Assembly: GCA_913041025.1 (NCBI GenBank)
Contig: CAJWGQ010000015.1
Span: 1-25,641, forward strand
From: an uncultured Gammaproteobacteria bacterium
GTDB taxonomy: Bacteria > Pseudomonadota > Gammaproteobacteria > Pseudomonadales > Azotimanducaceae_A
Reading direction: 5' to 3'
Length of the DNA: 25,641 bases
The notes beneath the pieces are model-generated. The model saw only the letters and a program-made list of their open reading frames with translations. It had not been told where the DNA came from and made no database searches. Positions 12,145 through 16,205 of this stretch are shown piece by piece. The first letter of the stretch is position 1, and each line of letters begins with the position of its first letter. The position numbers and the translations under genes were made by a program.

Positions 12145-13152
12145 ATGATACAAGGGATAAAAGAGCCAAACGTCGAACGCTGGCTTAAAGAAAATGTTGA
12201 AGGGGTTTCAGCGCCATTTAGCTATGAGTTGATTGCTGGCGGCCACTCAAACCTGACTTACGGCGTAACAGATTCCGAAGGAAAAAAGGTGGTGTTAAGG
12301 CGTCCTCCCTTAGGGCATGTTTTGGAAAGTGCTCATGATATGGCCAGGGAGCATAAAATTATTTCTGCGTTATATGGAAAAGGCGTTCCCGTTGCTGAAA
12401 CGCTTGGCTTGTGCTCCGACCCAGAAGTGAATGACGCGCCTTTCTATATCATGGGGTTTGTCGAAGGTCCTGTACTGCACGACGCTCAAGCAGCTAACGA
12501 GATTAATTCCGCGGACCGAGAAAAAGTGAGTGAGCACGTGGTGGACGTTCTGGCTAATTTACACCTATTGAACTGCGATGAGGTAGGTTTGGGCGATTTG
12601 GGTCGAAAGGAGGCCTATCTTGAACGCCAGCTCAAGCGTTGGACTAAGCAGTGGGAAGCTTCCAAGACCCATGACGTGCCTGCCATGGAGGAGAGCACAC
12701 GTCTTTTATCGTTGAATATGCCTGAACAAATTGGTGCTTCGGTGGTTCACGGGGATTATCGACTTGGAAATATGATTATCAGCTCGGGTCAGGTCGCGGC
12801 GGTTTTGGATTGGGAATTGTGTACCCTGGGTGACCCTTTAGCCGATGTTGGTTACCTGCTTAACTCCTGGACTCAGCCAGGAGAGCATGAGGAGGATCTG
12901 ATTCCTACCTCCATCGGAGGGTTTTATACTCGAGAAGAGTTGTGCCAAAGGTACATCGAGAAAACCAAGAGAGATCTGAGTGAGATCAACTACTACAGAG
13001 CGTTTTCGCATTGGCGGCTAGCGGCTATAGGTCAGGGCGTTTACAAACGATATCTGATGGGTGCAATGGGTGAAGGTCGAGACATGAACCTGGATATGCA
13101 AAAGAACAGCGTTTCGCTTCGAGCTGAAGCCGCTCTTGAGCTTTTAACCTGA
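12145..13152 (+). CDS. APH/ACAD10-type phosphotransferase (acyl-CoA-linked kinase family)
   Basis: This 335-residue protein kinase-like phosphotransferase has the catalytic loop HGDYRLGN (H202 to N209, catalytic D204) and the metal-binding DWE (D222), followed by LCTLGDPLADVGYLL. ATP-lobe residues are visible in GGHSNLTYGV and VVLRRPP. This form of the APH fold, with DWELCTLGDPLAD, is the one found in the kinase domain of ACAD10/ACAD11 and in LvaA-like proteins, which phosphorylate the hydroxyl of 4-hydroxyacyl-CoAs. Antibiotic resistance is unlikely. Clustering with an acyl-CoA ligase and acyl-CoA enzymes supports a role in hydroxy-acid catabolism, but that is inference. The ATG at 12145 follows a moderate GA-rich SD. 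It is followed by the convergent small RNA candidate. Confidence 0.85.
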   Translation: MIQGIKEPNVERWLKENVEGVSAPFSYELIAGGHSNLTYGVTDSEGKKVVLRRPPLGHVLESAHDMAREHKIISALYGKGVPVAETLGLCSDPEVNDAPFYIMGFVEGPVLHDAQAANEINSADREKVSEHVVDVLANLHLLNCDEVGLGDLGRKEAYLERQLKRWTKQWEASKTHDVPAMEESTRLLSLNMPEQIGASVVHGDYRLGNMIISSGQVAAVLDWELCTLGDPLADVGYLLNSWTQPGEHEEDLIPTSIGGFYTREELCQRYIEKTKRDLSEINYYRAFSHWRLAAIGQGVYKRYLMGAMGEGRDMNLDMQKNSVSLRAEAALELLT

Positions 13153-13159
13153 GGGAATT

Positions 13160-13264
13160 AAAAAAGGCGTGTCAGAGTAAACTCTGAGGGCAACTTAGCT
13201 TCTTGGGGGAAGGACACTTGAAAGGGAGGACTCTCAAAGTTGCTTTCACGCCTAAGCCTTTAAT
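13160..13264 (-). ncRNA. Candidate small RNA, three-way junction with two C-rich loops and U-tract end
   Basis: On the minus strand the predicted transcript starts near 13264 and ends in the T run complementary to 13160-13165. Three perfect 7-bp helices nest without conflict. P1 joins 13247-13253 to 13165-13171 (AGGCGTG/CACGCCT). P3 joins 13237-13243 to 13190-13196 (GCAACTT/AAGTTGC). P2 is a hairpin at 13172-13187 (TCAGAGT/ACTCTGA). Together they form a three-way junction whose closing helix runs straight into the U tract, as in an intrinsic terminator. Inside P3, one small hairpin presents UCCUCCCUU in its loop (13222-13230) and another, CUUC/GAAG, presents CCCCAA. Exposed CCUCC-like loops are typical of sRNAs that pair with Shine-Dalgarno sequences. 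It lies between the 3' ends of the kinase and merR genes and resembles no RNA family I can name. Confidence 0.6.
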
Positions 13265-13285
13265 GTACAGATTATGTACTGTACA
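13264..13285. promoter_or_regulatory. Palindromic operator-like site over the sRNA promoter
   Basis: TGTACAG (13264-13270) and CTGTACA (13279-13285) form a perfect 7-base inverted repeat with an 8-base spacer. The dyad covers the -10 element and the predicted start site of the small RNA, where a bound protein would control initiation. The inner GTACA box recurs at the merR promoter. The binding protein is not known; the adjacent MerR-type regulator is the obvious candidate. Confidence 0.5.
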
Positions 13286-13300
13286 AATGATAGGTGTCAA
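13271..13300 (-). promoter_or_regulatory. Sigma70-type promoter of the candidate small RNA
   Basis: Read on the minus strand, TTGACA (13300-13295) is a perfect -35 element. After an 18-base spacer comes CATAAT (13276-13271), matching five of six bases of the -10 consensus. It begins six bases after the merR stop codon and points away from merR, with only the sRNA candidate downstream on that strand. Predicted +1 is the A at about 13264. Confidence 0.65.
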
Positions 13301-13306
13301 CCACTT

Positions 13307-14275
13307 TTAAGTCGATTTATGACTTTTTTTCGCTTTTTGAGGAGATTTGGGAGAAATTAAGCGCTCTAAGGCAAATTCTAATTCCGCCCGCGCGTGGGTA
13401 GTGCTTATATTGACAGCCTCAAGAGATGAGGCGTGTTCAAATTCCTTACTACACTGGCTGCTGTAAGCTGATAACGCATTCAGTTGATGTATAGACTCGA
13501 CAAGATATTCTGGGCAACCTGAGGGGTCGCCGGATGACGTCGCAATCGCAATCAGCTCTTCGTCGCTATATTTTCTGGGAGAGGGGTGCCTGCTACTTCT
13601 AAGAACTTGGTGGCCATTCAGGCACATGTGTTCTATTTCGCTCCAGGATATTGGCCATTTTATGGTCGGTATTTTCATTTCCTGAATTTCGCTAATGGTA
13701 TCGGCAGTAGTAAACTGATAGAGCACCATTATTTCGGCATTCGGGAAATAATTTTTAACTATTTCAATGGGTTGAGTGTTGAGAACGGGCAATTGAACAA
13801 CGATGACATCGAGTTCTTCAGTTTGATATTGTTCGTTTTCGAAGGCTTCGATGTTCGCCCACCTGGCGTTAATTTCGAGAAGCATATCTGATTTATTTAT
13901 CCGCGCCGCTATGGCTTTCTGCTCCAAAAGTAAAAGGTTTGGACCTATCAAGCCCACCGACGGTTGGTGGTGAATCGGCGATTGCCAGTTTTCTCGGCCC
14001 ATATCATTCTGGTGCTCAATTCGCGCTTCGAGTTGATCAATTTCGAGCTCTACAAGACTGGATATAGGATGTCCCAGGTCGATTAATCGTTTGATGAGTT
14101 TAAAACGATCTAATTGTGTTTTGTTGTAAAAACGAGTGCGACCGGATTTGTGGGCAGGACTTAGGTTATAACGCCTCTCCCAGGCTCGCAGTCTCTCCAC
14201 AGAAAGGCCAGTCAGAGAGGCGACAGTGCCTATTCTATATAGCTGGTCTCCATTTGTGGTCGTTTCGTAATTCAT
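13307..14275 (-). CDS. MerR-type transcriptional regulator with degenerate Rossmann-like sensor domain
   Basis: This protein has 322 residues from the ATG at 14275; a TTG seven codons upstream lacks an SD and lies in a predicted 5' UTR hairpin. Residues 11-75 are a MerR DNA-binding domain (YRIGTVASLTGLSVERLRAWERRY). Residues 105-218 alternate strands and helices (VGLIG, MLLEINARW, DVIVVQLPV, AEIMVLYQF, IPTIKWPI) like the cobalamin-binding domain of CarH/LitR regulators. However, the helical bundle and the ExHxxG motif of those proteins are missing, so B12 or light sensing cannot be assumed. The C-terminal part is helical with C254-P255 and C275 (GCPEYL, YSSQC), then a basic tail rich in K and S. 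It is transcribed divergently from the acyl-CoA synthetase gene. The signal it senses is unknown. Confidence 0.85.
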   Translation of the reverse strand: MNYETTTNGDQLYRIGTVASLTGLSVERLRAWERRYNLSPAHKSGRTRFYNKTQLDRFKLIKRLIDLGHPISSLVELEIDQLEARIEHQNDMGRENWQSPIHHQPSVGLIGPNLLLLEQKAIAARINKSDMLLEINARWANIEAFENEQYQTEELDVIVVQLPVLNTQPIEIVKNYFPNAEIMVLYQFTTADTISEIQEMKIPTIKWPISWSEIEHMCLNGHQVLRSSRHPSPRKYSDEELIAIATSSGDPSGCPEYLVESIHQLNALSAYSSQCSKEFEHASSLEAVNISTTHARAELEFALERLISPKSPQKAKKSHKST

Positions 14276-14281
14276 GTTCCG

Positions 14282-14299
14282 TTTTTGTATCAACAAAAA
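14282..14299 (-). repeat. AT-rich hairpin in the merR 5' leader
   Basis: TTTTTGT (14282-14288) and ACAAAAA (14293-14299) are perfect inverted repeats with a four-base loop. The element lies six bases upstream of the merR ATG, between it and the predicted promoter, and could affect translation of the regulator. It is weak in energy because it is mostly A-U pairs. Confidence 0.4.
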
Positions 14300-14301
14300 G
14301 T

Positions 14302-14335
14302 GTACGAATCATACGGATTTGGCGAAAGATGTCTA
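14302..14335 (-). promoter_or_regulatory. Predicted merR promoter with overlapping near-palindrome
   Basis: On the minus strand, TAGACA (14335-14330) and TATGAT (14313-14308), separated by 16 bases, each match five of six consensus bases. The -10 is embedded in a 13-base near-palindrome at 14302-14314 (GTACGAATCATAC on the plus strand, one mismatch). Two bases after the -10 comes GTACAC. This is the same spacing as GTACAT at the small RNA promoter, so autoregulation by the encoded MerR protein is plausible. Confidence 0.5.
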
Positions 14336-14348
14336 GGATTTGTATAGT
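14319..14348 (+). promoter_or_regulatory. Possible promoter for the acyl-CoA synthetase leader
   Basis: TTGGCG (14319-14324), an 18-base spacer and TATAGT (14343-14348) match four and five of six consensus bases. It overlaps the divergent merR promoter region, so one bound regulator could influence both. Use of this promoter would give a leader of about 300 bases before the synthetase. A weaker alternative is TATGAT at 14612-14617, which has no good -35 element. Confidence 0.35.
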
Positions 14349-14406
14349 CTATATTAAGAGCTGGGGCTTTGGTTTCATACGGTTGATCGTAGGAGGACTT
14401 TTTATA

Positions 14407-14476
14407 GTTAGGCGCTCCACGGCACATCAAGGGAGGAGGGGAGAGGTAACCGTGCAGCGCCCTTATCTTTCCTAAC
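14407..14476 (+). promoter_or_regulatory. Long hairpin with purine-rich loop in the synthetase leader
   Basis: GGCGCT (14411-14416) pairs with AGCGCC (14456-14461). After a single C-C mismatch, CACGG (14418-14422) pairs with CCGTG (14450-14454). The outer GTTA (14407-14410) can pair with TAAC (14473-14476). The 27-base loop (14423-14449) contains an almost uninterrupted purine stretch with several GGA and GAGG units. This is the only strong structure in the 382 bases between merR and the synthetase gene. It has no T tract after it on either strand, so it is not an ordinary intrinsic terminator. Transcription through it is not proven. Confidence 0.5.
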
Positions 14477-14588
14477 GCCCTAAATAATAGGGTATGACGG
14501 GAAAGAAGCGGGCATTGTATTCTCACTGACATAGAGTTCAAGAGTTATTTTCTGGATCTGCGTTTTTTTTAAAAAAACTTCTTAACAG

Positions 14589-14654
14589 GTCCAAAAACGA
14601 CGGTATTTCGATATGATTCTCTCCCCTTGAGATGTTTGGACACGACTGAGGAAG
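14589..14654 (+). promoter_or_regulatory. Leader inverted repeat and ribosome binding site of the synthetase gene
   Basis: GTCCAAA (14589-14595) and TTTGGAC (14635-14641) are perfect 7-base inverted repeats just before the SD GAGGAAG (14648-14654), which sits a short distance from the ATG at 14658. The intervening loop holds CTCTCCCCT (14619-14627), the exact complement of AGGGGAGAG in the upstream hairpin loop (14437-14445). A minimal reading frame ATG...TGA (14632-14649, five codons) ends inside the SD. Confidence 0.4.
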
Positions 14655-14657
14655 CTA

Positions 14658-16205
14658 ATGAAGAATAATCTAGGACTGATCTTAGCAAAACGCGCGCTAC
14701 TCTCACCGGAAGCTGAGGCTTATGTGGAAGGCGCCGACACGACAAAGCGATATACTTACGGAGAGCTTAATCAAAGATGCAATCAAATTGCTAATGCATA
14801 CCTGGATGCGGGTATTCGCAAAGGAGATCGAGTAGCTTTTCTTTTAATGAATTCGATCGAATTCATGGAGTCCTATTTTGCATTGGCCAAGATAGGGGCG
14901 GTGGTTGTTCCTCTGAATTGGCGCTTGGTACCCGACGAGCTTGAGTTCATTCTAAAGGATAGTGGAGCAACAAGGCTGATTTTTGATGAGGATTTCATAG
15001 ACACAGTGGTAGAGCTGCACGGCCGTGGTGATAAAACTGATGTGACTCATTGGCTGCAAGTTGAGAACCAGGCAGAAGTTTGCTTTTTTGCCGAGGGATA
15101 TCAGACTTTTCAATCCAGAGCCAGTTCACAAGAGCCTGAAATCGCTGCTGAAGATTCTGACATGCTCTACATTATGTATACCTCCGGTACTACAGGGCTA
15201 CCAAAGGGTGTGGTCCATACCCATGATTCCTCGATTTGGGCATTGGTGACTTTTATGGCCACTGGTGATCTTCAGATGGTTGATCGTTACTTGGCTTGTT
15301 TGCCGATGTTCCATGTCGGCGCATTAATGCCTTTAGCGCTTAATGTTTATCGAGGGACCTGCTCGATCGTTATGCGAAGCTTTGATCCGGTCCGAGCCTG
15401 GGAATTGATTGAGCAAGAGAAAATTTCAACAGGATTATGTGTGCCTGCGATGCTAAATTTTATGGTTCAAGTGCCCAACTTTGAAAGGTTTGATTATTCA
15501 ACACTACGCTGGGTTATGACAGGAGCAGCTCCCGTGCCGGTTTCACTAACACAACAATACCTCAGCTTAGGAATAGGCATTTTGCAGGTGTATGGCTTGA
15601 CCGAAACATGTGGTCCTGCGTCTTTAATGGATGGCGAATTTACTGTGGACCGGCCCAGTTCTGCTGGAAAGGCTTTTTTTCACACTGACTTAAAGGTTGC
15701 CAAGGAAGATGGAAAGGAATGTGAACCGAATGAAGCCGGCGAGGTATGGGTTCGTGGAAAGCATGTAATGCTTGAGTATTGGAACCGTCCTGAGGCTACG
15801 GCCGAGACTCTGGTGGATGGTTGGCTCAGGACCGGTGACGTGGCGATGATGGATGAGGAGGGATTCATTTTCATTCAAGATCGGATTAAAGACATGATTA
15901 TTTCGGGAGGTGAGAATATTTATCCTGCTGAAATAGAAGGAGTCCTTGCATCACATCCTGGAGTTAAAGAGGCAGCTGTCATAGGACAGGAAAGTGAAAA
16001 GTGGGGCGAGTCACCTTTGGCTATCATCGTAAGATCCGATGAGTCGTTGACAGTTAAAGAAATACTGGATTTTTGCGAGGGTAAGCTGGCTCGCTTTAAA
16101 CAGCCACAGGGAGTTGAGTTCGTTGACGAAATACCAAGAAACCCTAGCGGTAAAATCCTAAAGAGATTGCTTCGAGAGGACTTTCCTGGCCCTGCTCCGG
16201 TCTAA
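14658..16205 (+). CDS. AMP-forming acyl-CoA synthetase (fatty acid-CoA ligase family)
   Basis: This 515-residue adenylate-forming enzyme activates a carboxylic acid to its CoA thioester using ATP. All core motifs are present: the phosphate-binding loop TSGTTGLPKG (175-184), YGLTETCG (312-319), the hinge segment TGDVAMMDEEGFIFIQDR, ISGGENIYPAEIE, and the catalytic C-terminal lysine K499 in NPSGKILKR. Length and motif spacing fit medium/long-chain or other fatty acid ligases; the substrate is not readable. It is divergent from merR with a long structured leader and converges on the CDF transporter gene three bases later. The SD GAGGAAG is well placed. Regulation by the neighbouring MerR protein is likely but inferred. 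Confidence 0.92.
   Translation: MKNNLGLILAKRALLSPEAEAYVEGADTTKRYTYGELNQRCNQIANAYLDAGIRKGDRVAFLLMNSIEFMESYFALAKIGAVVVPLNWRLVPDELEFILKDSGATRLIFDEDFIDTVVELHGRGDKTDVTHWLQVENQAEVCFFAEGYQTFQSRASSQEPEIAAEDSDMLYIMYTSGTTGLPKGVVHTHDSSIWALVTFMATGDLQMVDRYLACLPMFHVGALMPLALNVYRGTCSIVMRSFDPVRAWELIEQEKISTGLCVPAMLNFMVQVPNFERFDYSTLRWVMTGAAPVPVSLTQQYLSLGIGILQVYGLTETCGPASLMDGEFTVDRPSSAGKAFFHTDLKVAKEDGKECEPNEAGEVWVRGKHVMLEYWNRPEATAETLVDGWLRTGDVAMMDEEGFIFIQDRIKDMIISGGENIYPAEIEGVLASHPGVKEAAVIGQESEKWGESPLAIIVRSDESLTVKEILDFCEGKLARFKQPQGVEFVDEIPRNPSGKILKRLLREDFPGPAPV

Follow-up and report, generated by a model that had tools for sequence, protein, structure and literature searches.

In the 25,641-nt stretch of DNA analysed here (the window), the element at 13160-13300 looks like a real small RNA gene that was previously uncatalogued. 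We consider it fairly likely that its product, B-RNA, acts in trans as an anti-Shine-Dalgarno (anti-SD) small RNA that would pair with the gltA (citrate synthase) mRNA and repress it, under a LitR-like MerR protein encoded next to it. Our computations give B-RNA a conserved structure, a promoter with an operator, an exclusive linkage to this MerR protein, and complementarity between its loop and gltA.

Structure and distribution of B-RNA

The features of the RNA, based on the fold, covariation and homologous loci, are the following; the letters of the helices and of the U tract were re-read.

13160..13264, minus strand: B-RNA, predicted small RNA of about 105 nt with a three-way junction (5' end approximate)
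13247-13253/13165-13171, minus strand: AGGCGTG/CACGCCT, with helix P1 (pairs 13247-13252/13166-13171)
13237-13243/13190-13196, minus strand: helix P2, GCAACTT/AAGTTGC
13187-13172, minus strand: helix P3, hairpin TCAGAGTTTACTCTGA (pairs 13181-13187/13172-13178)
13160-13165, minus strand: U tract, TTTTTT
13224..13231, minus strand: predicted anti-SD site 1, GUCCUCCC, present in 44 of 65 B-RNAs
13203..13215, minus strand: predicted anti-SD site 2, GUCCUUCCCCCAA, containing the conserved GUCCUUCCCC

Folding of the minus strand from 13155 to 13264 gave a minimum free energy of -30.9 kcal/mol (z = -3.86), with none of 200 shuffles as stable, and agreed with the three helices and terminal U tract of the first-pass annotation, the coordinates of which were confirmed. 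The helices are also conserved in the homolog alignment and covariation check that had been proposed for them. In alignment A2, comprising 34 B-RNAs aligned by sequence only, they are paired in 96.7% of cells, and 12 of the 20 pairs are compensated by changes on both sides (56 cells), a covariation score matched by none of 500 shuffles. Slid-partner controls brought the pairing down to 32-48%, and RNAalifold recovered the same three helices unaided.

The two C-rich inner loops described initially belong to a single internal segment of 30-35 nt, GUCCUCCC...GUGUCCUUCCCCCAAG, enclosed by P2. Their exposure stands, as each C-rich core occupies a small hairpin loop in the window fold (UCCUCC unpaired at 1.0, CCCCAA at 0.92-1.0), but the inner hairpins are missing from the consensus structure. 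Within the P2-enclosed segment, every row of A2 (34 of 34) has GUCCUUCCCC, as do 60 of the 65 B-RNAs.

As read from the sequence, with the U tract judged by eye, B-RNA carries its own promoter and an intrinsic terminator. The latter is absent from the list produced by a terminator scan of the window, because the P1 stem before the U tract encloses the other helices and is not the simple hairpin that such a scan seeks. With promoter and U tract present and the RNA conserved through compensatory changes, the proposal of an RNA gene with its own promoter holds. So does its lack of a known RNA family: the Rfam 15 scan of the window gave no match at the gathering score, seven relatives searched at E<=10 gave three implausible matches, none of them at the B locus, and six further loci gave no match at E<=1.

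When 33 aligned MerR proteins (A1) were used to search species genomes, 72 related loci were obtained, all from records titled as metagenome-assembled genomes and assigned in these titles to Gammaproteobacteria, Pseudomonadales, Proteobacteria, or clades such as K189A, OM182 and HTCC2089. In 65 of them B-RNA lies 3' of merR and is read in the same direction. A covariance model built from the window and 33 of the 65 loci finds 64 at E <= 5e-10 and L045 weakly (E 0.067); the other 31 strong matches are not there by construction, because they lie outside the model-building set. The B-RNA core (13161-13252) is identical in the window and in L001, where MerR is 93% identical. Four of the seven loci without B-RNA are cut by contig ends (L019, L062, L066, L070), and the other three (L065, L068, L069), with MerR proteins only 29-32% identical, have no B-RNA 3' of merR. 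At these three loci a different conserved segment with the end stem GGCGGAAATAG/CTATTTCCGTC stands in its place, with an excess of GGA motifs in L068 only and no Rfam match.

Among 100 genomes of one family, 45 carry B-RNA, each in a single copy (E <= 0.01), and these 45 are precisely the genomes with close MerR relatives (at least 225 bits); weaker relatives (at most 181 bits) are also present in genomes without B-RNA. In every one of these 45 genomes the RNA shares its strand with the MerR gene and follows the MerR domain at a distance of 86-262 nt. A MerR relative adjoins the RNA in all 13 B places fetched from them, at least 9 of which lie outside the 72 loci. Seven of 20 distant MerR loci (L152, L153, L154, L155, L157, L158, L167) show, by eye, a diverged C-rich RNA downstream with a GGCGUG/CACGCC-like closing stem; the arrangement of a MerR gene with a C-rich RNA therefore seems wider than model R1 detects. 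At L160 (G432:C7), a long hairpin, GGTCGGCGGGACAG/CTGTCCCGCCGACC in the opposite-strand reading, with a C-rich loop, lies just 3' of a MerR paralogue.

Complementarity to the gltA ribosome-binding site

In the first target search, AGGGAGGAC-N2-9-ATG in 17 genomes with B-RNA matched, in one genome each, the ribosome-binding sites (RBS) of citrate synthase (L192), methylcitrate synthase (L200), aconitase B (L175) and others; the protein identities of these three were confirmed. The C-rich loop motifs taken as gltA pairing sites are GUCCUCCC and GUCCUUCC. From genomes with B-RNA (B+), 38 gltA regions were fetched and 37 scored, leaving out G393, which has no usable start. Each score is the contiguous complementarity between the genome's own loop and the gltA region from -30 to +3, with start codons picked by script.

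Complementarity of at least 8 nt is reached by gltA in 17 of 37 B+ genomes, which are related to one another, compared to 10 of 367 other genes, drawn from the vicinity of merR rather than genome-wide (Fisher 2e-13). Counted by sequence cluster, 13 of 26 clusters reach this length. Shuffled loops do so in a mean of 0.85 of the 37 genomes, at most 3 in 100 shuffles, and loops shuffled in 2-mers in a mean of 1.03, at most 4. The pattern match in G009 first pointed to gltA, so that neither G009 nor its near-twin G464 counts as independent; the count without them is 15 of 35. The sites of the remaining 20 of the 37 genomes fall under 8 contiguous pairs.

For genomes lacking B-RNA (B-), scored against a consensus loop, none of 20 gltA regions reaches 8 nt and four reach 7 nt, including that of G404 (site GGGAGGATTC), a genome with a citrate synthase close to the B+ enzymes. 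The gltA regions of two further B- genomes outside the scored set, G394 and G470, contain no GGGAGGAC. Some B- genomes are not pure negatives, because G399, G420, G462 and G476 hold diverged C-rich RNAs beside a more distant MerR gene.

The gltA site is exactly GGGAGGAC in 11 of the 37 B+ genomes. The closest relative of the window comes from genome G001, where the gltA site reads TTGGGGGAA and matches UUCCCCCAA of the window loop perfectly. Loop and site have changed together in G418 and G441 (loop AAUCCUCCC, gltA site GGGAGGATT), and in G014 the loop keeps only site 2 (GUCCUUCCCC) and the gltA site is GGGAAGGAC; G403 is a counter-case, with the loop AAUCCUCCC but the gltA site GGGAGGAC. The earlier suggestion that the loops bind Shine-Dalgarno sequences is thus borne out at the level of complementarity, specifically and recurrently for gltA. 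Since the loops complement the gltA RBS, B-RNA probably lowers the entry step of the citric acid cycle, and repression of gltA is its likely function.

It is conceivable, though we consider it rather unlikely, that B-RNA is an anti-SD RNA with a broad set of G-rich RBS targets, of which gltA is not the main selected one. The pairing sites are generic SD complements, and AGGGAGGAC-N2-9-ATG also occurs before an enoyl-CoA hydratase-like gene and two SnoaL-like genes (G005, G009), as well as acnB and prpC. At least 8 pairs are found in 5 of 20 prpC regions from 19 genomes, 4 of the 5 (G020, G440, G469, G417) from genomes with near-identical B-RNAs. Such breadth is, however, at odds with the 10 of 367 other genes, all near merR, that reach 8 pairs compared to 17 of 37 for gltA, and with the sdhC genes of B+ genomes, where none of 26 has 8 pairs or more. 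As to individual candidates, acnB was rejected, its pattern match not being conserved across genomes. The scored gltA sites of G417, G020 and G440 are weak, and in this group, to which four of the five prpC matches belong, the complement seems to have shifted from gltA to prpC.

We also regard it as improbable that the C-rich segment binds a protein, as a sponge or by titrating a chaperone, instead of mRNA. The long conserved C-rich stretch with repeats and the related C-rich RNA upstream of merR (see below) would suit this role, but the complementarity between loop and gltA exceeds all controls.

Promoter, operator and the neighboring MerR gene

The B-RNA gene occupies the minus strand between the stops of a kinase gene (12145-13152, plus strand) and the MerR gene (13307-14275, minus strand). 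The promoter letters below were re-read.

13295..13300, minus strand: -35 element TTGACA of the B-RNA promoter
13271..13276, minus strand: -10 element CATAAT of the B-RNA promoter, with an 18-bp spacer to the -35 element
13275..13285, minus strand: conserved palindromic operator TGTACAGTACA with LitR-type TGTACA half-sites, between -35 and -10
13307..14275, minus strand: MerR-type regulator, predicted controller of B-RNA from its domains and co-occurrence

The minus-strand TTGACA, 18-base spacer and CATAAT reported in the first-pass annotation were found again, letters and coordinates alike. This promoter agrees with the consensus at 11 of 12 positions and scores highest among the 8 promoter-like sites of 13000-14800, where shuffles contain a mean of 2.7. 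Across the set of 65 B promoters (64 loci and the window), TTGACA is exact at 43, and the palindrome TGTACWGTACA (at most 2 mismatches) lies between -35 and -10 and overlaps the -10 element in all 65, being exact in 55. In the window an additional TGTACA is present at 13264-13269 (minus strand).

A search of 18 genomes with the 12-bp form of the operator, TTGTACWGTACA, found nothing in G006 and a total of 18 distinct sites in the other 17. B promoters account for 17 of these sites, the remaining one lying elsewhere in G002; the reversed pattern gave 2 sites in the same genomes. As TTGTACWGTACA is nearly exclusive to B promoters, and B-RNA and MerR co-occur, this MerR probably controls B-RNA and little else. 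The position of the operator within a strong promoter suggests that it acts there as a repressor.

The same evidence bears on the reading of B-RNA as a terminator or 3' UTR element of the merR mRNA, cis-acting or 3'-UTR-derived, with no gene of its own. Its constant position in the 45 genomes, on the strand of merR and at the distance from the MerR domain given above, and its U-tract end, fit this reading, which we judge improbable nevertheless: a promoter-like site and an operator directly precede the RNA at 65 of 65 loci, and termination does not require a conserved internal C-rich segment. It is very improbable that B-RNA is an antisense RNA to the convergent aminoglycoside-phosphotransferase-like kinase gene (12145-13152), since, even though the U tract ends 7 nt past the kinase stop in the window, the coding region is not overlapped and the sequence after B-RNA differs, by eye, among loci.

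The MerR protein consists of a helix-turn-helix (HTH) domain, a receiver-like alpha/beta domain and C-terminal helices. Pfam MerR_1 is matched in all 33 family members, in none of which the B12-binding domains PF02607 and PF02310 were found at E<=0.01. The best PDB sequence matches, 3whp and CarH (5c8d), cover the HTH only, and the NCBIfam scores for MlrA (36.5 bits) and CarH (36.1 bits) are far under the cut-offs. The LitR/CarH trait found at B promoters is the TGTACA-type operator, with a spacing that differs from the published consensus. After the receiver-like domain, the consensus DPTxCPEYLVE contains Cys254, invariant in the 33 aligned proteins; the motif is a possible sensing site. A MerR gene followed by a photolyase gene is the arrangement of LitR-type light regulators. 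At L163 and L168, a MerR paralogue is directly followed by a DNA photolyase gene (PF00875), which suggests that the present MerR derives from light-response regulators.

A-RNA, a related C-rich RNA, is found upstream of merR, in the same orientation, in the window and in 29 of the 72 loci; three loci have too little upstream sequence to judge.

14411..14461, minus strand: A-RNA core, hairpin GGCGCU.CACGG[..CCUCUCCCCUCCUCCCUU..]CCGUG.AGCGCC, upstream of merR
14541-14514, minus strand: A-RNA promoter-like TTGAAC-16-TACAAT, window copy

The region 14385-14520 (minus strand) of the window folds with z -3.25, 1 of 200 shuffles being as stable. In alignments that exclude the near-duplicates L008 and L019, the hairpin form has 3 of 11 pairs compensated in 10 sequences and the three-way-junction form 8 of 20 pairs in 17 distinct sequences. 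By eye, the promoter-like TTGC/TAGAAT elements of A-RNAs contain no TGTACA palindrome. Because T-rich tracts end some copies and not others, including that of the window, which has no U tract, A-RNA may be either a small RNA of its own or a merR leader. The B model finds 7 A-RNAs weakly (E 0.008-0.27), which hints at a common descent of the two RNAs.

In the circuit that we propose from these elements, the LitR-like MerR would occupy the palindromic operator in the B promoter, which is strong and of sigma-70 type, and would most likely keep this promoter repressed until its signal arrives. Once MerR leaves the operator, B-RNA would be made and, probably assisted by Hfq, which is encoded in all 27 B+ genomes searched, would pair by either anti-SD site with the gltA RBS; in one group of genomes the target is apparently prpC (methylcitrate synthase) instead. 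Pairing with gltA would block translation and lower the flux into the citric acid cycle. The operator, the tie to the neighboring MerR, A-RNA and a named target all go beyond the first-pass annotation. More tentatively, and with somewhat less than an even chance in our estimate, the whole may form a signal-gated switch of one regulator, one RNA and one enzyme, from MerR through the small RNA to citrate synthase, with A-RNA tuning the same step.

If the proposal is true, a signal, possibly of light or redox type, acts as the gate to the citric acid cycle across many uncultured Gammaproteobacteria, and a small RNA promoter is practically the sole strong genomic target of a LitR-like MerR with a receiver-like domain. 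B-RNA is a structured small RNA family new to Rfam 15, with a dedicated predicted regulator and a candidate target, and the lineages that carry it are represented here by metagenome-assembled genomes alone. We know of no earlier small RNA on citrate synthase under a LitR-like MerR. As the operator is near-unique, the circuit is simple enough to be tested in parts in E. coli.

Comparison with known systems

The closest functional parallels are NmsRA/NmsRB of Neisseria meningitidis and NgncR_162/163 of N. gonorrhoeae, which share with B-RNA the UC-rich anti-SD stretches, the terminal U residues and the presence of two related RNAs at one locus (PMC5362039, PMC9973317). The two anti-SD stretches of the NmsRs serve the repression of gltA, prpC and others (PMC5362039). 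Direct targets of NmsR/NgncR include gltA and prpC, whereas for B-RNA the likeness is one of complementarity only, in 17 of 37 and 5 of 20 regions, respectively (PMC5362039, PMC9973317). Unlike B-RNA, the NmsRs are tandem RNAs of three stem-loops under RelA/stringent control (PMC5362039). B-RNA differs further in its three-way junction enclosing the C-rich segment, in the two RNAs flanking a MerR gene and in the LitR-type operator; sdhC, an NmsR target, lacks complementarity to it (0 of 26). The bacteria belong to different classes, and the likeness drawn here is one of function, by description.

RoxS/RsaE of the Firmicutes, regulated by ResDE and Rex, differs from B-RNA in phylum, structure and regulation. 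Like B-RNA, it is described as presenting several single-stranded C-rich regions to G-rich SDs of central-metabolism genes, and RoxS overexpression lowers the citrate synthase CitZ (PMC10433868). B-RNA would join NmsR and, through the CitZ effect, RoxS among the small RNAs that use anti-SD pairing to act on citrate synthase.

The genomic arrangement recalls VtlR-AbcR1 of Alphaproteobacteria, where small RNA genes, one of them controlled, lie directly 3' of the gene for the controlling transcription factor (PMC7486931); VtlR is a LysR-type activator with many other targets, and AbcR1 targets are mostly ABC-transporter genes. With the class II LitR proteins PplR1 and PmlR2 of Pseudomonas, the MerR protein shares the MerR HTH, TGTACA half-sites at a sigma-70-type promoter and the absence of a complete B12-binding module (PMC9758184). 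These class II LitR proteins bind T(G/A)TACA-N12-TGTA(C/T)A at genes for light-inducible proteins, and PmlR2 acts as a repressor (PMC9758184). The MerR of the window is set apart from them by its compact TGTACWGTACA palindrome at a small RNA promoter, its lack of PF02607 and its receiver-like second domain.
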